A DNA stretch of 48,695 bases. Origin: Nitrospira sp. Its GTDB lineage: Bacteria; Nitrospirota; Nitrospiria; Nitrospirales; Nitrospiraceae. Position numbers and translations under genes: made by a program. The notes beneath the pieces are model-generated. The model worked only from the letters and a program-made list of their open reading frames with translations, made no database searches and was not told the DNA's origin. Positions within the stretch are counted from its first letter, which is position 1, and each line of letters starts with the position of its first letter. Below are positions 694 through 11,031 of the stretch, piece after piece. The DNA is taken from assembly GCA_020853775.1 (NCBI GenBank), contig JADYYH010000068.1:1-48695 (forward strand). Reading direction: 5' to 3'.

Positions 694-2529
694 ATGAAGC
701 GCAAGGATCGCGCGTTAAACATCCTGGCATGGTGCTACCGACAGCTGAACCGCATTCTCCCCTGGTACCGCCTCCCCAAAATTCTCGGCATCGGCAATCT
801 CGTCGCGCTCCGGCATGACCTGCGACGCTGGAACCTCTTTGACACTGGCCCCCTCATGGCTGGCCACGGAACGCGCCACTGTCCGTTTCACCGCAAGGAC
901 CTCGATGAACGACGGGCGGACGGCTCGCATAACGATCTTCAGGTCCCCTCTATGGGCAGCGCTGGTTGTCCCTTTGGTCGAAATGCTCCATTCGAGACCA
1001 TCTCGTCGCCCGCCGAACCGGGTCTCGAAACACCGAGCCCCCGCGCCATCAGCCGGTTGCTCATGACTCGCACGCAATTTATCCCGGCAACCTCCCTAAA
1101 TCTCCTGGCCGCCGCCTGGATTCAGTTTCAGGTTCACGACTGGTTCGGCCATGAACAGGAAAATGAGGCCTCGGCTCCGATCCCACTGGCGGAAAATGAC
1201 ATTTGGCGCGACAACCCCATGATGGTCCGCCGTACCAAGGAGGCGGCGGGCGCGAGAAGTGGGTGTCCGGCCAAAATCCCGATCTTCCTCAATACAGAAA
1301 CCCATTGGTGGGATGCTTCACAGCTCTATGGCAGCAGCGCACAACGGCAACTGGACGTCCGTGGACAACGAGACGGAAAACTCAAACTTGATCATGGACG
1401 TCTGCCGTCGATGGAGAAACTCGACGGGGAACTCCCTGGCATCGACCTCACCGGATTCAATGACAATTACTGGATCGGCCTCAGCCTGTTTCATACGCTC
1501 TTTGCGCGGGAACACAATGCCATCTGCGAGATGTTACTCACTCACTATCCTTCGTGGACGGATGAGCAACTTTTCCAAAAAGCTCGCCTCATTAATGCCG
1601 CGCTGATCGCCAAGATCCACACGGTGGAGTGGACACCAGCCCTGCTCCAGCATCCCACGCTCGACAGCGGCATGAAAGCCAATTGGTGGGGCCTGCTCGG
1701 CAAACAGATTCGAACGCGAATGGGGCGACTCAGCGACAGCGAAGTGTGGAGCGGGATTCCGGGGTCGCCCCCTGATCACCATACAGCCCCCTATGCCATG
1801 ACCGAAGAATTTGCTGCAGTCTACCGGCTGCATCCGCTCATTCCCGACGAGTACCGCTTCTTCTCGCTGACCGATTCGTCCTTGAGTCATTACAAATCAT
1901 TCCCTGATATCCAGGGCAATCAGACCCGCTCGACCATCGAGGAAGTGGGCATCGACAATGTGTGGTTTTCGTTCGGACTGGCTCACCCCGGACAATTGAC
2001 GCTCGGCAACTTCCCGCGCTTCCTTCAGGAGTTCCGCCGCATCAAGCGATTGCCGAACGGAGATCCCGATGTCTTGGACGTGGCGGCCATCGATATCTTT
2101 CGCGATCGGGAGCGAGGAGTCCCTCGCTACAATGCGTTCCGGCGCATGCTCCGCTTGAAACCGATGAAGAGCTTCAAGGCATTGAATCCAGAATGGGCCA
2201 AACATCTGCACGATCTCTATGAAGGCGATCTCGAACGGCTGGACCTGATGGTCGGGCTCTATGCGGAAACACCGCCGCCTGGCTTTGCCATCAGCGACAC
2301 GGCCTTTCGAATTTTTACGCTGATGGCGCCGCGCCGGCTCAAGAGCGATCGATTTTTCACGGCCGATTTTCGACCGGACGTGTATACATCCGCCGGCATC
2401 GATTGGGTGCAGGACCATGACCTCACGAGCGTATTGCTTCGCCACTACCCGTCGTTGGCGCCGGCCCTTCGAGGCCTCGGCAATCCGTTCTTCCCCTGGC
2501 ACAACGTCCATGAGCCGGTGTCGCAGTAG
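694..2529 (+). CDS. Animal-type haem peroxidase, cyclooxygenase/alpha-dioxygenase-like
   Basis: This 611-residue protein belongs to the animal haem peroxidase superfamily. Residues around 142-151 (FQVHDWFGH) carry the distal haem histidine, about H148. Residues 375-383 (AVYRLHPLIPD region) carry a YxxH pair, Y377 and H380, at the place of the catalytic tyrosine and proximal histidine of prostaglandin synthases and plant alpha-dioxygenases. That pair separates oxygenases from plain peroxidases, so oxygenation of a fatty acid is the likely reaction; the substrate is inferred. There is no clear signal peptide, but the N-terminus is basic and amphipathic, suggesting membrane association. GAGG lies five bases before the ATG. 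A lipoxygenase gene follows after about 80 bases, pointing to shared lipid oxidation. Confidence 0.85.
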   Translation: MKRKDRALNILAWCYRQLNRILPWYRLPKILGIGNLVALRHDLRRWNLFDTGPLMAGHGTRHCPFHRKDLDERRADGSHNDLQVPSMGSAGCPFGRNAPFETISSPAEPGLETPSPRAISRLLMTRTQFIPATSLNLLAAAWIQFQVHDWFGHEQENEASAPIPLAENDIWRDNPMMVRRTKEAAGARSGCPAKIPIFLNTETHWWDASQLYGSSAQRQLDVRGQRDGKLKLDHGRLPSMEKLDGELPGIDLTGFNDNYWIGLSLFHTLFAREHNAICEMLLTHYPSWTDEQLFQKARLINAALIAKIHTVEWTPALLQHPTLDSGMKANWWGLLGKQIRTRMGRLSDSEVWSGIPGSPPDHHTAPYAMTEEFAAVYRLHPLIPDEYRFFSLTDSSLSHYKSFPDIQGNQTRSTIEEVGIDNVWFSFGLAHPGQLTLGNFPRFLQEFRRIKRLPNGDPDVLDVAAIDIFRDRERGVPRYNAFRRMLRLKPMKSFKALNPEWAKHLHDLYEGDLERLDLMVGLYAETPPPGFAISDTAFRIFTLMAPRRLKSDRFFTADFRPDVYTSAGIDWVQDHDLTSVLLRHYPSLAPALRGLGNPFFPWHNVHEPVSQ

Positions 2530-2607
2530 CAACCATGGAGAGGACCCTCGAAGCGATGGCATCGAGCGCTGATCGCCGCCGTGGTTTCTTTCTCAGAGAG
2601 GATGCCC

Positions 2608-4206
2608 ATGTCCCTGATCACATCACTGCAATGGATGGTCCGTAAGCGGTTCTGGAACGGCGTCGCCAGGGCAAAATATAGTATGACTCGTCCCAAGAAC
2701 GTCACGACGGTGGCCGTGCGGCGATCACCGGTGACGCTGATTCCCTTCACAGAATCCTTTCCCGCCATTCCCGTTGCGGGCATCCGCGTCGCAAAGCAGG
2801 TCCCACAGGATGAACGGCAGGCAGTTGCCGAGAGCATGATGCGATTTTTTGCCAATTTCTGCAGGGTGTGGTCTCCCATGCAGGCTGGAAGGCCAGACAT
2901 TGCAGCTAATCCCCATCAGGCTTTGGACGAGGCCTACAGCCGACCCCACCGTCAGGCAGTCTTGCGGAAGGCGGCTGCGGTCCGACTCGATCCGCAACGG
3001 ATGCTGCGTACCCCGACAATGCCGGTCGAGCTCCAGCGCCCTGCTGATTTGGGAATGCTGGCCCTCCGTGGCCCCTATGCGGGATATCTCCGAAAGGCTT
3101 CCCTTAGCCCCGATTGCTTCGAATGGGACATCGAGGAGCTCCGTTCGTACAGCCACCATTCGGACCTCTACGCTCCCTGGGCCCATGTCCTGTTCAAGGC
3201 GGATCCCGCGCAGGCCTCACTCATTCCCGTCCGGATACGGTGCGAACTCGGTTCGGTCCATCCCCGCGATGCGCACTGGGCGCTCGCCACACGAATTGCT
3301 GTGTGCGCCGCCACGACTCATACGGCATTAGTTCGACATTGGACCTGGACGCACCTGATCGGAGGCGAGTATTTCTCAGCCGCCACCCGCACTCACCTGG
3401 CACCAGATCATCCCCTGTGCCGGCTGCTGTGGCCCCACATGGTCGGCACACATACGAGTAATCGGCTGGCCACTCTTGGTCAACTGATGCCCGACGGAGA
3501 TTTTGAAGCCATCTATAGCCTGACCTATTCCGGATTATGCCAACTCATAGGGAAGGCCGGTCAGGACTTCAATCTACGCTCCTGCGATCCGGATGAAGAC
3601 GCGCGTGATCGAGGGCTACTCGAGAGCGGGCTCCCGATGCAGACCTTCTGGAACTGCCGAAGAATCTTTCGGGTGTTTCAGGCCCACGCAGAACGGTATC
3701 TGCGGCTGTACTTTGCGGACGACGACATCCGGACGGATCAGTCGATTCGCAATTGGCTGACTGAGCTGACTCGCTTGTTGCCGAACGGGCTCGGCCTCGC
3801 CTCGGCTCCGCTGACCTGTGCCGCGTTGGCACGAGTGGTCGCTCGATTCATGTACTTGGCTTCCGTCCAGCATGAACAACTCGGCACTCAGCTTTGGAAC
3901 TACCAGCTCTGGGCGCATACCCATCCCGTGCGGGTGTATCGTGATGGCCGTCGGCTGCCGGAAGATGTGTACCAACGGCTGGTCAACTCCAACTATGTAC
4001 TCAATGTGGTCCGGGCGCCCCTGCTGCAGGATTATGCGCCGCTCGCGCTGGTAGAACCCGGACGTCCTGAGCGGCACCCGCGCGCGGAAGCTGCCTTCGC
4101 GCAGTTGCGGCTTGATTTGGCCCGGCTTCAGCGAAAGATGGAGCGCAAACCGTGGGCGCCCTGGACGCTATATCCAGCCGATCTCGAGGCGAACATCAAT
4201 GCCTAA
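2608..4206 (+). CDS. Lipoxygenase-family protein
   Basis: Starting at 2608 (GAGAGG six bases upstream; 2581 or 2602 are alternatives) the protein has 532 residues. The metal-site helix HWTWTH (H244, H249) followed by the HPLCRLLWPHM stretch matches lipoxygenases, which insert dioxygen into polyunsaturated fatty acids using a non-haem iron or manganese. A third ligand candidate is H422 in QHEQLGTQLWNYQ, but the usual H-x3-N/H/S fourth ligand is replaced by glycine. The chain ends NINA, so the C-terminal metal-binding residue, normally isoleucine, would be alanine. No N-terminal PLAT/C2 domain is apparent, as in many bacterial members. It is probably cotranscribed with the peroxidase upstream and overlaps the kinase downstream by eight bases. 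Family assignment is firm; activity with the altered metal site is uncertain. Confidence 0.8.
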   Translation: MSLITSLQWMVRKRFWNGVARAKYSMTRPKNVTTVAVRRSPVTLIPFTESFPAIPVAGIRVAKQVPQDERQAVAESMMRFFANFCRVWSPMQAGRPDIAANPHQALDEAYSRPHRQAVLRKAAAVRLDPQRMLRTPTMPVELQRPADLGMLALRGPYAGYLRKASLSPDCFEWDIEELRSYSHHSDLYAPWAHVLFKADPAQASLIPVRIRCELGSVHPRDAHWALATRIAVCAATTHTALVRHWTWTHLIGGEYFSAATRTHLAPDHPLCRLLWPHMVGTHTSNRLATLGQLMPDGDFEAIYSLTYSGLCQLIGKAGQDFNLRSCDPDEDARDRGLLESGLPMQTFWNCRRIFRVFQAHAERYLRLYFADDDIRTDQSIRNWLTELTRLLPNGLGLASAPLTCAALARVVARFMYLASVQHEQLGTQLWNYQLWAHTHPVRVYRDGRRLPEDVYQRLVNSNYVLNVVRAPLLQDYAPLALVEPGRPERHPRAEAAFAQLRLDLARLQRKMERKPWAPWTLYPADLEANINA

Positions 4207-6937
4207 CGGACCGATGGCGGAGATATCTGACCGCCCCGAAGCGATGGAGGAGCGGCCTTACTCGCTTTTGACGAAAGAGCACACCATTCTCGAACGTCCG
4301 CTGATGGCTTTTCGCCCATTCGGCATCAATGAGCAGGGACGCAAAATCGCGGACGTGAGCGGCACCCTGGTCTTGTCCAGCATTCAACACCTCGGGAAGT
4401 GTGTGGAAAAGAGCGCGGGGCGAGATGCTGCGGACGCCGCCGTGGAACAACTCTGTCGTCTCCTGAACGAGCGTATACCGGACTCGGCGTACCATGTCAC
4501 CCCCGGGTTTCTCAGGAAGGAATGGAACAGTTATTCCTATGAGTTCCTCAGCTATCTTCGCGAGTTCTGCAAACAACTCTCGGGCGATCCGGACTTTCAT
4601 TTCAATACCGGCTTGACCAAGGTGATCTCTCCGGTCTTCCGTGTCCTGGCCAGACCCTTTTCATTGGCCCAATTCTCCCGGCTCGCCCTCTATTGGGCCC
4701 AGCGATATACCCAAGGGACCGTCGAATGTGAAGTAGCGGAGGTGACTGATCACTCGATGATTTACCGCCTGCGCTTTACCGACCATACCCTCCGGCAATT
4801 CGGCCCCTATCTCAAAGCCTGCGCACAACAGGTCTGTGCATCGACAAAAGGCCGCATGGTGGCCGCCCCCACGCTGATTCACGGAGGTCCGGCCGCCACC
4901 GTGACGGATCGGGCCTGCATCGTCGAGGGGGATCCCTGGTGCGAATGGGAGGTCCGATGGCATCCCGAGCCAGCGCTGTCTTACTGGTTTTTGGGAGCCC
5001 TGCTTCCCGGCGTATTGGCGTGGACCTATCTCCACCGCTACTATCCCGCCATATCCGGAGTCGAGGCGCTGTTCGTTGTCCTGATCCCCATTACCATGAC
5101 TGCGCTCGTCACCGAGCTTCGTCAACGCAGTCTAGCGCGCCGACGTGAATCCCTGATCCGAGAGCAAATGCAATTCGTAGACGCGCGGTACGAAGACTTG
5201 CGCGACGCCTTCGTGGAACAGGAGCAGACACGAGTCGAGCTGCGACGTAAGGTCAGTCAACTCACAGCGCTCAATCGCGCGGGGCTTGGCTTCAACTCCA
5301 CGCTGGACCGTGAATCCCTTGTGCAAACCGTTCTGGCTACCCTGATACAAGACTTGCACTACGACCGCGCGATGATCAGCTTTTACGACCCGGAGCGCCG
5401 CATGTTATACGGCGGACGAATCCTCGGCGTTTCGGAGGAGATTGCAGAATTCGTCCGGCGACGGGAATTGCTGGTTACCGATCCGGACGGGTTTCCGGCT
5501 TCCGCCCTGCGCGACGGCAAACCACTTCTCGTCCAGGATGTCGCCGATCTTTGGAAGCACCTACATCCGGCCAACCAGGAATTGGCGCTCCTCACTGGCA
5601 CCAGGTCCCTGATCTGGGTCCCCTTGATCGCAAAGGGCCGGATCCTCGGGACTCTCACGGTCGATCGTACGGCACCCAACACCTTGACAAGCGAAGACCT
5701 GGAGCTGATGGTGACTCTCGGCAACCAGGTCGCAATTGCCTTCGATAATGCCGCGGCCTATGCGCAGATCGAGGAGATGAACATCGGACTGGAGTCGAAA
5801 GTCCGTGAACGCACCGCCGAGTTGGAACGCGCCGACCGATCGCGATCGCTCTTCCTTTCTCATGTCTCCCATGAGCTCAGAACGCCGCTGACCTCGGTAA
5901 AGGGATTTGTCGAAAATCTGCTCGACGGCCTCACCGGCCCGCTGAACGAAAAGCAACAGCGGTACTTAAGCCGTATTGTGGACAATGTTGGCCGCCTCAT
6001 TCGTATGATCAATGACCTCCTGGACCGCACCAGAATCGAAACCGGGCAATTGACGTTGTCGCCCGCCGAAGTTGATCTCGAACGCTGCATCGCCGAGGTC
6101 ATCGAGCAATTACGCCCTCTCGCCTTGGAGAAAGAGCAACTCCTCACGACCGAGTACCCGTCGTCCCCTGTTATTGTGTGGGCGGACCGAGACCGGTTGA
6201 TTCAGATCGTTACCAATCTCGTCCACAACGCCATCAAGTTTACACACCGGGGAGGACTGGTTTCAGTTCACGTCACCACGCCACAGTCGAGCCAGGCCAA
6301 CGTTTGCGTCTGTGACACGGGGCCCGGCATTCCGCCAGAATTCCTCGAAAAAGTATTCGATCCCTTCTTCCGCATGGGGCAAGAGACACGCAGCGGATCG
6401 AAAGGCCTCGGTCTCGGGTTATCCATCGTGAAAACCCTCGTCGATCTTCATCATGGACAGGTAGCTGTGCGCAGCCAACCAGGGGTAGGTACGGAATTCA
6501 GCGTGGGGCTACCCATGATCCCGGCTTCTACACTCACATTATCCGATCAGACCACAGACAAACGTCTGCTCATTGTGGATGATGACCCCGACATTCGTCA
6601 GCTCCTCGTGGATCGCCTGAGCGCCGACGGGTATGAGGTCGCAACAGCCGTGGATGGGGCCCAGGCGATAAAGACGATTCAAGAATGCCGATTTTCAGGA
6701 GTGCTCATCGATATCGGCATTCCTGGAATCAACGGTCTGGAGGTGCTGCGTCAGGTGAGGCAGTCGAACCAGCAACTTCCCATCATCATCATTACCGCCG
6801 CCGAATCGAAAGATCTTGCCGTTCATTCTATCAGTCTCGGTGCTCAGGCCTATGTACTCAAGCCGTTTGACTCGAAAGAACTTGAGCAGGTCGTGGACCA
6901 TTGGTTTACGCGAGTGATGCTTAAGTCCAGTCCATAG
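4199..6937 (+). CDS. Membrane hybrid sensor histidine kinase (V4R-like, GAF, HK, REC)
   Basis: The start at 4199 (ATGCCTAA) overlaps the lipoxygenase stop, implying translational coupling; 912 residues. Domains in order: an N-terminal alpha/beta sensor of about 250 residues ending in a V4R/haem-NO-like motif (ACIVEGDPWCEWEV); two membrane segments at about 262-305; a coiled coil; a GAF domain at about 370-520; a second coil; HisKA with H558 in SHVSHELRTP; an HATPase with N box NLVHNAIKF, DTGPGIP and GLGLGLSIVK; and a receiver from about 789 with D838. Kinase and receiver in one chain suggest a phosphorelay or a diffusible partner. No DNA-binding partner is adjacent. The ligand is unknown; coupling to two oxygenase genes suggests an oxidised lipid or a redox signal. 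Confidence 0.88.
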   Translation: MPNGPMAEISDRPEAMEERPYSLLTKEHTILERPLMAFRPFGINEQGRKIADVSGTLVLSSIQHLGKCVEKSAGRDAADAAVEQLCRLLNERIPDSAYHVTPGFLRKEWNSYSYEFLSYLREFCKQLSGDPDFHFNTGLTKVISPVFRVLARPFSLAQFSRLALYWAQRYTQGTVECEVAEVTDHSMIYRLRFTDHTLRQFGPYLKACAQQVCASTKGRMVAAPTLIHGGPAATVTDRACIVEGDPWCEWEVRWHPEPALSYWFLGALLPGVLAWTYLHRYYPAISGVEALFVVLIPITMTALVTELRQRSLARRRESLIREQMQFVDARYEDLRDAFVEQEQTRVELRRKVSQLTALNRAGLGFNSTLDRESLVQTVLATLIQDLHYDRAMISFYDPERRMLYGGRILGVSEEIAEFVRRRELLVTDPDGFPASALRDGKPLLVQDVADLWKHLHPANQELALLTGTRSLIWVPLIAKGRILGTLTVDRTAPNTLTSEDLELMVTLGNQVAIAFDNAAAYAQIEEMNIGLESKVRERTAELERADRSRSLFLSHVSHELRTPLTSVKGFVENLLDGLTGPLNEKQQRYLSRIVDNVGRLIRMINDLLDRTRIETGQLTLSPAEVDLERCIAEVIEQLRPLALEKEQLLTTEYPSSPVIVWADRDRLIQIVTNLVHNAIKFTHRGGLVSVHVTTPQSSQANVCVCDTGPGIPPEFLEKVFDPFFRMGQETRSGSKGLGLGLSIVKTLVDLHHGQVAVRSQPGVGTEFSVGLPMIPASTLTLSDQTTDKRLLIVDDDPDIRQLLVDRLSADGYEVATAVDGAQAIKTIQECRFSGVLIDIGIPGINGLEVLRQVRQSNQQLPIIIITAAESKDLAVHSISLGAQAYVLKPFDSKELEQVVDHWFTRVMLKSSP

Positions 6938-7153: not shown

Positions 7154-8437
7154 ATGACCTTCTACTCCAGCAGATTGGTGACATTTCCTCACATTTTGCT
7201 GTGGCTCGCCCTGCCAGTGATCATCGACGCTCCCGTGCTTGCAGCCACTCCGATCTTCACTTATACCGACGAGGCCGGAGTTCAAACGCTGACCGACGAC
7301 TTCAGCTCCATCCCCGAGCAGTATCGCTCCCAGCTGACACAGCGCAGCTTCGACACGCCGATATCTCCGGAAACGCCGGCACCGGCGGTGGCGGCCGATC
7401 CACCGATGCGCTCGGCCGATGCGCGCACCATCGCCGCGAGCGGCGAATACCGTATGGGTGATCATGATAGCCGCGCCGATGCCGTTCGCTTGGCGACGGA
7501 AGCCGCAAAGCAGGACGCGCTCGAACAGGTCGCAACCTACGTGGAGAGCGTCACGGAAGTGCGGGATCTGGATGTCACGCGTGACGATATCCGCAGCTAC
7601 ACGGCCGGTATCGTCAAGGTGGTGGATCAGACGGTGACCACGAGGCTGGAGCAAGATCAGGTCGTGATTCGTGTGGACCTCAAGGCCGAAGTCGACCCGC
7701 ATGACGTGGTGCAGGCCATCGCGGCACTCCGGGAGAACGAGCAGGCGCGCAATGAGCTAGCGGCGCTCCGGGCTGAAACCGATCGACTCCAGGCACAAGT
7801 CGACGACACCACCCGCGCGCTGGCCGCCGCCTCTACTCCTTCCGACGTGCAGCAATACACGGATCAACGCCAGGACATGCTCGACCAGATGCAAGCCAAC
7901 GCGCTCCTGTCACAGGCCTGGACAAGTTGGACCTATCCGACATTGGGCTTCTACTCCTATCCATGGTTCGGGGTGTCTGGCATCAACGGCCTGTTGCTAC
8001 AAGCCCAACGCCTCTCGCCGCATCATCGCCACCTCCCGCTCGCGCAACGGATGATCACGGCGAACAACAGTACTTCGCCGGCACAGCCGCCGGTCTCCAC
8101 GCCGCCGCGCCCCTCGCTGCTGGTTCCACCTCTGCTGCACACGCATCAATATCAAGCCCCGCCGCTCCTCAACAGCCAGGGCCAACAGGCTAAGGTGGGC
8201 GACGTGGTGGTCATCCCGACACCCAGGTCGATTCCCTCGACTCCGCAATACACCCCTCAAGCGCCGCCCTACCAGGTCCACCCCAACCATTTCTGGCGGC
8301 CCAGCCCACCGAACATCCAGGGCTCATCCGCTCTGTCTCGCCCGAGCCCCTCGGTCAGCCTGGCGCCTCGGTCCTTTAGCGGACATACCGGTAGCGGCGG
8401 ACATTCCCATGGGGGCGGCGGCCACCGCAGCCGCTGA
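7154..8437 (+). CDS. Exported DUF4124-like protein with FlgT/LPP20-like middle and His/Gly tail
   Basis: This 427-residue protein starts with a signal peptide (cleavage near AAT at about 32). A DUF4124-like stretch follows (IFTYTDEAGVQTLTDDFS). Residues about 95-195 resemble the N-terminal domain of FlgT/LPP20-type envelope proteins (ATEAAKQDALEQVATYVES). A coiled coil runs from about 195 to 240, then a long Pro/Ser/His-rich region ending in glycine and histidine (GGHSHGGGGHRSR) that could bind metal. The three-part arrangement is unusual; I cannot assign a function beyond periplasmic or envelope location. No strong ribosome site precedes the ATG. The 216 bases upstream hold an imperfect hairpin at 6989-7013 and a run of eight C, but no other gene. 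Confidence 0.65.
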   Translation: MTFYSSRLVTFPHILLWLALPVIIDAPVLAATPIFTYTDEAGVQTLTDDFSSIPEQYRSQLTQRSFDTPISPETPAPAVAADPPMRSADARTIAASGEYRMGDHDSRADAVRLATEAAKQDALEQVATYVESVTEVRDLDVTRDDIRSYTAGIVKVVDQTVTTRLEQDQVVIRVDLKAEVDPHDVVQAIAALRENEQARNELAALRAETDRLQAQVDDTTRALAAASTPSDVQQYTDQRQDMLDQMQANALLSQAWTSWTYPTLGFYSYPWFGVSGINGLLLQAQRLSPHHRHLPLAQRMITANNSTSPAQPPVSTPPRPSLLVPPLLHTHQYQAPPLLNSQGQQAKVGDVVVIPTPRSIPSTPQYTPQAPPYQVHPNHFWRPSPPNIQGSSALSRPSPSVSLAPRSFSGHTGSGGHSHGGGGHRSR

Positions 8438-8563
8438 TAGGCGAGTGACATCGCCTCAACAACGGGCCTGCCGTCGAAAGGCAGTCAATGAGGACGGCAT
8501 CGCGCCATTTAGGAAAGTTTGAATAAGGGGCTGGTCATGCACCGATTTCGGTTATAGTGGCGC

Positions 8564-9463
8564 ATGGCGTCCAGGTCCGCGCACCATTCCTCCCCTCTGT
8601 CCCGAGGCAGAAGCCGCTCACACCGCCGCCTCACTTTCGCGGCCCTCCGACGCTTCCTCCATTTCCGCTGGCGCAACCTCCGGGCATTCCTTCGAGCCAT
8701 AGGAAAAACTCATCCGGTGCTGCGCCTCGTCATCGGCGCGGGACTCCTGTTTTTCCTCTGGTTCGGAACCAATTGGATCTACCACGCGATCCACAAACCG
8801 ACCGAAGTATTGTTTCCCCTGGAAGATGCGCTGGACAAGAATCCCACGGCGACCTGGCAGGAATACGGCTCGTTGTTCCGCGAGCATTCAACGGCGATCA
8901 TCACCCCGGAACTCCTCGCGGCGTTAGCGCAGGCCGAGGGCGCAGGCAACCCCGTGGCGCGGACCTACTGGCGTTGGCGATTTTCCTGGAATCCTTTCGA
9001 TTGGTATCGGCCGGCTTCCAGCGCAGTCGGGATGTTCCAACTGACCGATGGCACATTTCGGGAGGCAAGACGCTACTGCATTCACAATCATGTGGTGGTC
9101 GAAGACGGCCCGTGGAACGATCCTCATTCCTGCTGGTTCAATAGCCTCTACACGCGCATTGTTCCGAGCCACGCCATCGAACTGACTGCCGCCTTGCTCG
9201 ATCGTCAGGTCGCCGCGGCCATCGGCTCCCGGAGAAATACCACTCTGACCAGGCAACAGAAGCAAGACCTTGCCGCCGTGATCCATCTTTGTGGGGCGGG
9301 AGCCGGCCATGCCTTCGCTGCTCGTGGCTTCCACCTGACTCCCCACCAGAAATGCGGGGATCATCACGCCGGCACGTACCTCGCCAGGGTGAACGGCTTG
9401 CGGCTACAGTTCGCGCGCCTCGCTGCCGGTAGCAGCCTTCAACGGCTGGTGAAACCGCGCTGA
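8564..9463 (+). CDS. Membrane-anchored lytic transglycosylase, SLT domain
   Basis: The 299-residue protein has a very basic N-terminus, one membrane segment at about 50-70 (LVIGAGLLFFLWFG), then a soluble periplasmic domain. E125 in AQAEGAGNP matches the catalytic glutamate of soluble lytic transglycosylases (usually ESxxNPxA), and SSAVGMFQLTDGTF matches the downstream GAxGLMQ motif. About 20 extra aromatic and basic residues separate the two motifs. Such enzymes cleave peptidoglycan to 1,6-anhydromuropeptides. No Shine-Dalgarno is visible; a TATAGT at 8553-8558 lies so close to the ATG that a leaderless transcript is possible. The upstream frame at 8557 is a shadow. Confidence 0.8.
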   Translation: MASRSAHHSSPLSRGRSRSHRRLTFAALRRFLHFRWRNLRAFLRAIGKTHPVLRLVIGAGLLFFLWFGTNWIYHAIHKPTEVLFPLEDALDKNPTATWQEYGSLFREHSTAIITPELLAALAQAEGAGNPVARTYWRWRFSWNPFDWYRPASSAVGMFQLTDGTFREARRYCIHNHVVVEDGPWNDPHSCWFNSLYTRIVPSHAIELTAALLDRQVAAAIGSRRNTTLTRQQKQDLAAVIHLCGAGAGHAFAARGFHLTPHQKCGDHHAGTYLARVNGLRLQFARLAAGSSLQRLVKPR

Positions 9464-9575
9464 GAGGACCTCCGTCTGCCTTTACCGGGCATTCTGTGAT
9501 GCCAGCCAGGGTTTCCCCGAGTATCCCGAAACGGACCGATGCGATCAACTCACGCTGGAGGGCCCCTGACACAGC

Positions 9576-11031
9576 ATGTTGTCCTTCCTACGCAACCATC
9601 ACCTTACTCGAATGATCGCGCTGATATCGGCGCTGGTCTTGCTGTCTCCGGGTATGGGTCTCTCGCAGGATCATCCACGCCCGCCGCCGGCAACTAACAG
9701 CGAGCGCAACTTGGTTGGGCCGGTCAATCACGCCGATCGGACTGAGACTCCATCACGAAATTCCGACCGGTCTTCGACGCTGAATTGGGAGACGAGAGAG
9801 GGCCGCAGTTATCTCATTCCCGCGGCAGAAATTCTCGCGTATCTCTTCCTGTTGAATCAATTCGATCGGCACTTCACCGATTCGAAATGGGTGCTCGACA
9901 ACGACCAGTTTTCCGTTAACCAGTTCCTGCATCCGTACAGCGGCAGCGTGTACTTTGGACTGGCCCGCTCATCAGGCCTCAACTTTTGGAAATCGTCCCT
10001 GTATAGCGTCGCCGGCAGTTTCCTCTGGGAAATCGGCGGAGAGAAAACGAACCCTTCGATCAACGACATGATTGCGACGCCCATCGGCGGAACATTCCTG
10101 GGTGAGCCGTTGTTCAGGATGACGAATTTGTTATTGGAATCCGACGGTGGCGCCCGGGTTTCTGGCGCGAACTCGGTGCCGCCATCATCTCGCCGCCCAC
10201 TGGATTCAATCGGCTGCTGTTCGGTGATCGCTTCGACACCGTCTACCCCAGTCACCGCCCCGCCACGTTCATCCGACTGGCTGGAGGTGGCACGCTGACC
10301 TCGAGCAGCCATAACGTGGCGTCGAACGTCAACGAGCATGGCGCGGTGGGCGAATTCACCCTGACGTACGGGCTCCCAGGCAAGCACGGCTACAGCTACG
10401 CGCATCCTTTTGACTATTTCGATTTTCATGTCTCCGCGGCCACCGCCAATACCCTAGAAACCATCACCATGCGCGGACTCCTTGCGGGGAACACCTACGC
10501 ATCCGGCGATACGACCCGCGGAATCTGGGGTCTCTTCGGCAGTTACGACTATATCTCGCCGCAGGTGTTCCGGGTCTCCAGCACCGCTCTCTCGCTGGGC
10601 ACCGTCTGGCAGTCCTGGTTGTCGGAGGAACTGGCGCTCCAAGGGACATTCCTGGGTGGCGCGGGTTATGGGGCAGCGGGCAGCATTCAGCGCACGGAAG
10701 AACGGGATTATCACTATGGCACGACGCCGCAGGCGCTACTGGCGCTTCGCCTGATTTATGCGAATCGCGCGATGTTCGACATCACGGGCGGGAATATTAT
10801 GTCAGCAACTTTCTCTCACCCGAACGGCATGGGCAGGGAAATATCATCCGCGCAGAATCGTCCTTCACGCTTCGCGTCTTCGACCGGCACGGGGTGGCGC
10901 TTCGGTATACCCTATCCCATCGAGATGCCCACTACCCGAGTGTAGAATACCGCAATCAAACAGTCACGGCCGTCAGCCTGATGTATGTCATCCTGGGGGA
11001 TTCCGGTTTCGGCGCAGTGGAATGGCGATGA
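9576..11031 (+). pseudogene. DUF3943-type outer-membrane-like protein, two frameshifts
   Basis: The first frame (9576-10298) has a signal peptide and DUF3943-like motifs (VNQFLHPYSGSVYF, SINDMIATPIGG) but loses homology near 10148. The homologous continuation (GFWRELGAAIISPPTGFNR) is in another frame from about 10148 to 10788. A third frame from about 10789 (REYYVSNFLSPERHGQG) ends properly with ILGDSGFGAVEWR and TGA at 11029-11031. Both switches need one missing base and sit in GC-rich runs (GGCGCCCGGG and CGGGCGGG), so either real decay or sequence error is possible. Repaired, the protein is about 485 residues and probably forms a beta-barrel in the outer membrane. Function is unknown for the family. 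Confidence 0.75.

Follow-up and report, generated by a model that had tools for sequence, protein, structure and literature searches.

The window analysed here, the whole 48,695-nt stretch of the Nitrospira contig JADYYH010000068.1 (assembly GCA_020853775.1), carries at positions 694–6937 a cluster of three genes that all lie on the + strand, as do the domains and motifs described within them, and that follow each other with small gaps in the ORF list (694–2529, 2581–4206, and 4199–6937). The first gene (694–2529) encodes a predicted heme-containing alpha-dioxygenase (PF03098) of 611 aa, as indicated by PDB matches, a Calothrix homologue, and invariant catalytic and substrate residues. The second (2581–4206) encodes a lipoxygenase-fold protein with a non-canonical metal site, 541 aa long as listed and recognised from PF00305, PDB matches, and an AlphaFold model, and the third (4199–6937) a hybrid histidine kinase of 912 aa counted from its ATG, identified from Pfam domains, motifs, and the overlap with the lipoxygenase stop. 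Pfam matches were An_peroxidase (6e-105) for the first gene, Lipoxygenase (1e-8) for the second, and GAF, HisKA, HATPase, and REC for the third. While the lipoxygenase gene is listed from a GTG at 2581, an ATG at 2602 or 2608 is a likelier start judging from relatives, and for the kinase we took the ATG at 4199, upstream of which a TTG at 4112 is listed. The initial annotation had described the kinase start as overlapping the lipoxygenase stop, and this was borne out as an overlap of 8 bp, with the context AATGCC plus stop recurring in nine loci. Both enzymes and the sensor domain of the kinase had dN/dS values of 0.09–0.21; a decayed or chance cluster was ruled out by these values together with synteny in other genomes. 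The genes after the kinase (7154–10945) comprise two without a Pfam match and one DUF3943 gene; they are partly retained behind the cluster in close relatives, judging by ORF length and position, and have no evident lipid link.

The best PDB matches of the first gene were the plant alpha-dioxygenases 4hhr and 4kvj (E 7e-116 to 1e-106, residues 16–603), against 5e-23 for the next family outside the alpha-dioxygenases and 6e-18 at best for cyclooxygenases. The gene had been labelled a cyclooxygenase-like peroxidase; with PDB scores about 98 orders of magnitude better for alpha-dioxygenase (4hhr), a cyclooxygenase identity is ruled out and the label gives way to alpha-dioxygenase. The Y-x2-H motif pointed out under the earlier label was confirmed, and comprises the catalytic Tyr377 and proximal heme His380 (YRLH, 1822–1833), placed by PDB match and alignment; the distal heme His148 lies in an HDW motif (1135–1137). 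These roles were taken from the plant equivalents in PMC8720084, which gives the heme His pair, the catalytic Tyr, and the carboxylate-site His, Thr, and Arg of the rice enzyme. Y377, H148, H380, H309, T314, and R547/R548 were invariant across 11 aligned alpha-dioxygenase sequences, including fused forms and an acidobacterial one. Judged by its sequence, the gene product is a complete alpha-dioxygenase that keeps every published catalytic residue, with its activity predicted.

Homology extends over the whole length to both bacterial (the cyanobacterial CalDOX, LepDOX, and CsDOX) and plant (4hhr, 4hhs, and 4kvk) alpha-dioxygenases, which share the catalytic Tyr, the heme His pair, and the carboxylate-binding His, Thr, and Arg. 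Unlike these known enzymes, the present ones are linked to a kinase and also to a lipoxygenase, in part by fusion, and Nitrospirota are absent from the five bacterial phyla with alpha-dioxygenases listed in PMC8720084. The homologue in Calothrix sp. PCC 6303 shares 50% identity across 95% of its length; CalDOX, an assayed Calothrix alpha-dioxygenase that is perhaps other than this homologue, prefers C10–C16 saturated acids. Genes for GMC oxidoreductase and patatin-like phospholipase lie close to the homologue on the Calothrix plasmid (L206), the latter echoing a patatin-like gene in the cluster of genome G189 described below. One dioxygenase gene of the set (L027:8099–9931) is interrupted by an in-frame TGA, reflecting decay or an assembly error.

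The second gene matched PF00305 (E 1e-8) and PDB lipoxygenases (E 3e-13), and its AlphaFold model (pLDDT 78.9) superposed on 5-lipoxygenase (7ttj) with Z 32.4 and rmsd 2.5 over 379 aligned residues, and on the Pseudomonas aeruginosa lipoxygenase with Z 31.9, C-terminus aligned to C-terminus. On this model the protein has a lipoxygenase fold, which does not in itself imply oxygenation of 1,4-pentadiene fatty acids. Canonical lipoxygenases bind their metal through three His, a fourth ligand that is Asn, His, or Ser, and the carboxylate of a C-terminal Ile. Alignments place H247, T248 at the position of the first iron His, and H253 at that of the second on a metal-site helix (3319–3339), and H431 and G435 at the positions of the third His and the fourth ligand (3871–3885). 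The placement of T248 derives from a gap-free stretch between the G189 homologue and the Cyanothece lipoxygenase, carried to the family by alignment. Among 17 sequences, H253 and H431 are invariant, the first iron His position is Thr, Leu, or Ile in all 17, and the residue just before it (H247) is His in 16 and Asp in one; the fourth ligand position is Gly and the last residue Ala in 17 of 17. The canonical ligand set is therefore incomplete, with ligands 1 and 4 replaced and a C-terminal Ala instead of Ile.

The earlier designation of this gene as a lipoxygenase thus stands for the fold and falls short at the canonical metal site. Since purifying selection acts on the family (dN/dS 0.14–0.21), the altered site is a stable variant rather than decay of a single copy. 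In comparison with the bacterial lipoxygenases CspLOX2 of Cyanothece (5med) and LoxA of P. aeruginosa (4g32), the protein has the same fold (Z about 30–32), two of the three iron histidines, and the position of the C-terminus, but differs in the replacement of the first His by Thr, Leu, or Ile and of the fourth ligand Asn/His by Gly, in its C-terminal Ala, and in having no N-terminal beta-barrel domain. One homologous gene, in genome G121, is broken by a frameshift, again through decay or an assembly error. Published Nitrospira lipid profiles contain 16:0 and 16:1 and no polyunsaturates (PMC3660363). With two iron ligands missing and lipids of this kind, ordinary lipoxygenase chemistry on the organism's own lipids is doubtful, and pentadiene substrates would need an outside source.

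The kinase begins with a sensor domain (4199–4966) assigned to the H-NOX fold by its AlphaFold model, fold matching, and invariant columns, and continues through a hydrophobic stretch that is probably a two-helix membrane hairpin (4970–5125; the second helix from hydropathy, the first by eye). It then carries a GAF domain (5306–5740; PF01590, 7e-18), a HisKA domain with the motif SHELRTPL (5843–6046; PF00512, 2e-21), a HATPase_c domain with N, G1, and G2 boxes (6185–6517; PF02518, 4e-29), and a receiver domain (6569–6895; PF00072, 4e-29). The HisKA His, the N and G boxes, and the receiver Asp are all present, as in a hybrid histidine kinase. The sensor domain (first 256 residues) had zero Pfam matches at E 10, and searching PDB sequences with a profile returned chance matches only, with a best E of 0.68. 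Its model, built from 36 relatives (pLDDT 92), superposed on H-NOX (3tfd) with Z 14.0 and rmsd 2.8 over 169 of 182 residues; VirS (Z 11.6) and palmitate-bound Bet3 (Z 8.7) followed further down the fold list, and the Foldseek list included the V4R-type phenol sensors MopR, PoxR, and DmpR.

Among the 36 sequences, there was no invariant His in the sensor domain and, going by sequence columns, no conserved His in the helix that precedes the first strand (columns 145–182), where the proximal heme site lies. Four cysteines (Cys208, 213, 240, and 248) are invariant, and the spacing of Cys240 and Cys248 equals that of Cys177 and Cys185 in the zinc site of DmpR; V4R zinc sites consist of Cys, Glu, Cys, and Cys. 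We therefore take the domain, on the strength of its model, to be a ligand-binding, heme-free member of the H-NOX/V4R fold that probably carries a structural metal. It shares its predicted fold with H-NOX (Nostoc) and V4R proteins (DmpR, MopR, and PoxR) and a Cys-x7-Cys pair with the DmpR zinc site; unlike them, it has no Pfam or sequence match and no clear heme ligand, and it is membrane-tethered before the GAF-HisKA region.

Conserved synteny of the cluster was looked for beyond the source strain and was found. The lipoxygenase is present in 20 of 175 family genomes, and the kinase lies beside it in all 20, spanning several genera, with 19 directly adjacent and one (G189) with a single gene between. 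Close relatives matched by the lipoxygenase were Nitrospira and Nitrospiraceae metagenome-assembled genomes and one Acidobacteria contig (L031), on which a sigma-54 activator gene (2–619) lies just before the dioxygenase–lipoxygenase pair. In 13 genomes the dioxygenase adjoins the lipoxygenase (in G018 and G121 it is truncated where the contig stops), while seven have lipoxygenase and kinase without a neighboring dioxygenase: six of genus g4 (G085, G153, G296, G302, G311, and G314) and G319, with the absence call limited in G319 and G302 by a contig end at or near the lipoxygenase.

In two single-contig complete genomes, G189 and G231, dioxygenase and lipoxygenase are fused into single proteins of 1741 and 1592 aa, respectively (L095:8610–13835 and L101:7658–12436), through glycine-rich, hydrophobic linkers of about 360–550 aa in which no Pfam family scored above cut-off. 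The fusions resemble the coral allene oxide synthase–lipoxygenase (3dy5) in joining a heme enzyme to a lipoxygenase, and differ from it in being bacterial, in having an alpha-dioxygenase as heme part, and in their long glycine-rich hydrophobic linker. In G189, the fusion stands in a run of FadL, patatin-like, dioxygenase–lipoxygenase fusion, RoxA-like, kinase, and second heme peroxidase genes. Heme peroxidases distantly related to the dioxygenase, animal-type proteins of about 950–1060 aa, occur at L095:495–3677 and in about 25 other family genomes; they are widespread in genera g4, g5, and g7, and one of them is the member of the G189 run with the fused enzymes.

The sensor domain itself is far more widespread: it turned up in 137 of the 175 family genomes and also in a sister family of the same order, with weak matches in other parts of the phylum. 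We collected about 100 kinase loci from sensor-domain matches blind to their neighbors, plus the lipoxygenase loci; two loci entered twice, and related genomes are non-independent events in the counts that follow. A FadL long-chain fatty-acid porin gene lay directly downstream on the same strand at 73 of the 99 kinase loci with room for it (median gap about 5 bp), and the gene directly upstream was a RoxA-like di-heme gene at 28 of the 99 and a lipoxygenase at 20. Kinase and FadL without either a lipoxygenase or a RoxA-like gene directly upstream were seen at 41 loci, and in window-type clusters FadL is not adjacent. The source genome holds a single RoxA-like gene and, in total, two FadL genes; one FadL and the sole RoxA-like gene flank a paralogous kinase on contig 57, and in the window's genus most genomes have a di-heme gene resembling RoxA and oleate 10S-dioxygenase ahead of the FadL-side kinase copy.

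The three intact RoxA-like proteins that were checked have two CxxCH motifs 235–250 residues apart; published spacings are 245 and 235 for the oleate 10S-dioxygenase/diol synthase pair PA2077/2078 and 199 for RoxA (PMC4496055). Going by these motifs, the spacing is as in PA2077/2078 rather than RoxA. In the kinase tree, which has long branches, the kinases linked to a lipoxygenase occupy at least three positions, and one such clade is nested among kinase–FadL pairs without an oxygenase. A 1847-aa kinase of the same family (L110:2557–8100; genome G323, C20) has four sensor-domain matches in an open frame followed by GAF, HisKA, HATPase, and receiver domains, with a RoxA-like gene before it and FadL after it.

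FadL, alpha-dioxygenase, the lipoxygenase fold, the di-heme oxygenase, and the patatin-like lipase have long-chain fatty acids in common, which leads us to propose a fatty acid, or an oxygenated derivative of one, as the signal read by the kinase. That a single sensor family is linked both with FadL and with fatty-acid oxygenases unrelated to each other further supports what we regard as a reasonably probable reading, that the cluster is a lipid-sensing two-component module in which the enzymes tune or produce the ligand of the co-translated kinase. In such a module, long-chain fatty acids would enter through FadL or be freed from membranes, and the alpha-dioxygenase would convert them to 2-hydroperoxy fatty acids, from which 2-hydroxy acids or aldehydes shortened by one carbon would arise. 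Oxygenation or rearrangement of the fatty acid or the hydroperoxide might fall to the lipoxygenase-like partner. A fatty acid or oxygenated product could then bind in an H-NOX/V4R-type pocket of the sensor domain, which would be cytosolic and tethered to the membrane, and binding would alter autophosphorylation and relay via the receiver domain to a downstream regulator; no response regulator emerged as the kinase's target. Counting against the module are the 41 loci with FadL and neither oxygenase directly upstream, the missing FadL beside window-type clusters, the two lost metal ligands, the 16:0/16:1 lipids of Nitrospira, and the handling of aromatic hydrocarbons by other FadL/TodX proteins and V4R-type sensors. 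The oxylipin-making module with a coupled kinase that the initial annotation had proposed is thus upheld in part: its fatty-acid theme finds support in synteny, the two fusions, FadL, and the RoxA-like genes, the oxygenated product is a possible ligand of the kinase next to the unmodified fatty acid, and pentadiene chemistry on the organism's own lipids is doubtful.

A narrower form of the lipid-sensing module, whose likelihood overlaps with that of the whole and which we consider a serious possibility somewhat short of even, holds that the kinase senses free long-chain fatty acids imported by FadL, or the membrane lipid state, with the oxygenases serving as output or detoxification and without any oxygenated signal. 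The alpha-oxidation for which alpha-dioxygenases may serve (PMC8720084) would suit such a role, and the nesting of a lipoxygenase-linked clade within kinase–FadL-only branches looks as if the enzymes had joined an existing fatty-acid sensor. The 41 loci with FadL and neither oxygenase also favor it, indicating that oxygenation is dispensable for the basic role of the kinase and that the ligand may be an unmodified fatty acid. However, window-type kinase copies keep the enzymes without an adjacent FadL, and different oxygenase families (lipoxygenase with or without dioxygenase, or RoxA-like) recur directly upstream of the kinase. We find it rather unlikely that dioxygenase and kinase form the functional unit, with the lipoxygenase-like protein as a partner that binds lipid but has lost catalysis. 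While the first iron His and the fourth ligand are lost in all 17 sequences, lipoxygenase and kinase persist without a neighboring dioxygenase in the six g4 genomes and G319, and purifying selection acts on the gene, with H247, H253, H431, and the C-terminus strongly conserved, which also argues against a dead protein.

Two further readings concern what the sensor domain detects. That it is a metal, redox, or gas sensor reading oxidative state, with the enzymes and FadL as lipid-repair targets, is suggested by H-NOX as the closest fold, by the four invariant cysteines with two spaced 8 apart like Cys177 and Cys185 of DmpR, and by the GAF domain. We nevertheless judge this unlikely, with no invariant His, nor any conserved one in the helix preceding the first strand, and with a cysteine pattern that fits the structural zinc of V4R sensors for small organic ligands. 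Aromatic hydrocarbons are also handled by FadL/TodX proteins and V4R-type sensors, and PF03349 covers both FadL and TodX; together with MopR, PoxR, and DmpR in the Foldseek list, this would fit a sensor of aromatic or other hydrocarbons in the manner of DmpR and MopR, with FadL as a TodX-like porin and the oxygenases acting on hydrophobic xenobiotics. Such a role appears quite improbable, as fatty acids are the substrates of the alpha-dioxygenase and lipoxygenase families, the carboxylate-binding H309, T314, and Arg547/548 pair of the dioxygenase are kept, and one cluster includes a patatin-like lipase gene.

Oxylipin signaling is central in eukaryotes, and both enzymes of the cluster have relatives among the plant and animal proteins that produce such oxidized-fat signals. 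Among the bacterial work consulted, Pseudomonas aeruginosa provides the clear case. In its ODS system, the LysR regulator OdsR responds to the diol synthase products (PMC6377657), and ExFadLO, a FadL-type protein, exports oxygenated fatty acids according to work cited in PMC5155153. Like ODS (PA2077/PA2078 and OdsR), the Nitrospira loci combine fatty-acid oxygenase genes with a dedicated regulator and have a FadL-type protein in the theme, and the paralog cluster holds a relative of the same di-heme family. The window cluster does not, however, consist of a di-heme oleate diol synthase pair with a LysR-type OdsR: its regulator is a hybrid histidine kinase, its enzymes are an alpha-dioxygenase and a lipoxygenase-like protein, and any autoinduction in Nitrospira is conjectural. 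The single parts are already known, while receptor type, enzymes, and fusion differ from ODS. No description of a Nitrospira lipoxygenase or oxylipin cluster, or of a FadL–histidine kinase–oxylipin cluster, was found in the open-access literature searched. More tentatively, and with distinctly less confidence than in the lipid-sensing module, we propose a bacterial two-component family sensing oxygenated fatty acids, that is, a Nitrospira oxylipin circuit composed of an H-NOX-fold non-heme kinase, FadL, exchangeable oxygenases, and a lipoxygenase with an altered metal site. The exchangeable oxygenases of such a circuit could conceivably be either the alpha-dioxygenase with the lipoxygenase-like protein or a di-heme 10S-dioxygenase-like enzyme, in parts that differ from the Pseudomonas circuit.

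The kinase family is spread through environmentally important nitrite oxidizers that live on CO2 and nitrite, and the cluster suggests a so far undescribed bacterial way of sensing fatty acids or their oxidized products. If this is true, it would provide a testable lipid receptor along with a family of lipoxygenases whose metal site is changed, and may point to a possible communication route with plants, algae, or neighboring bacteria.
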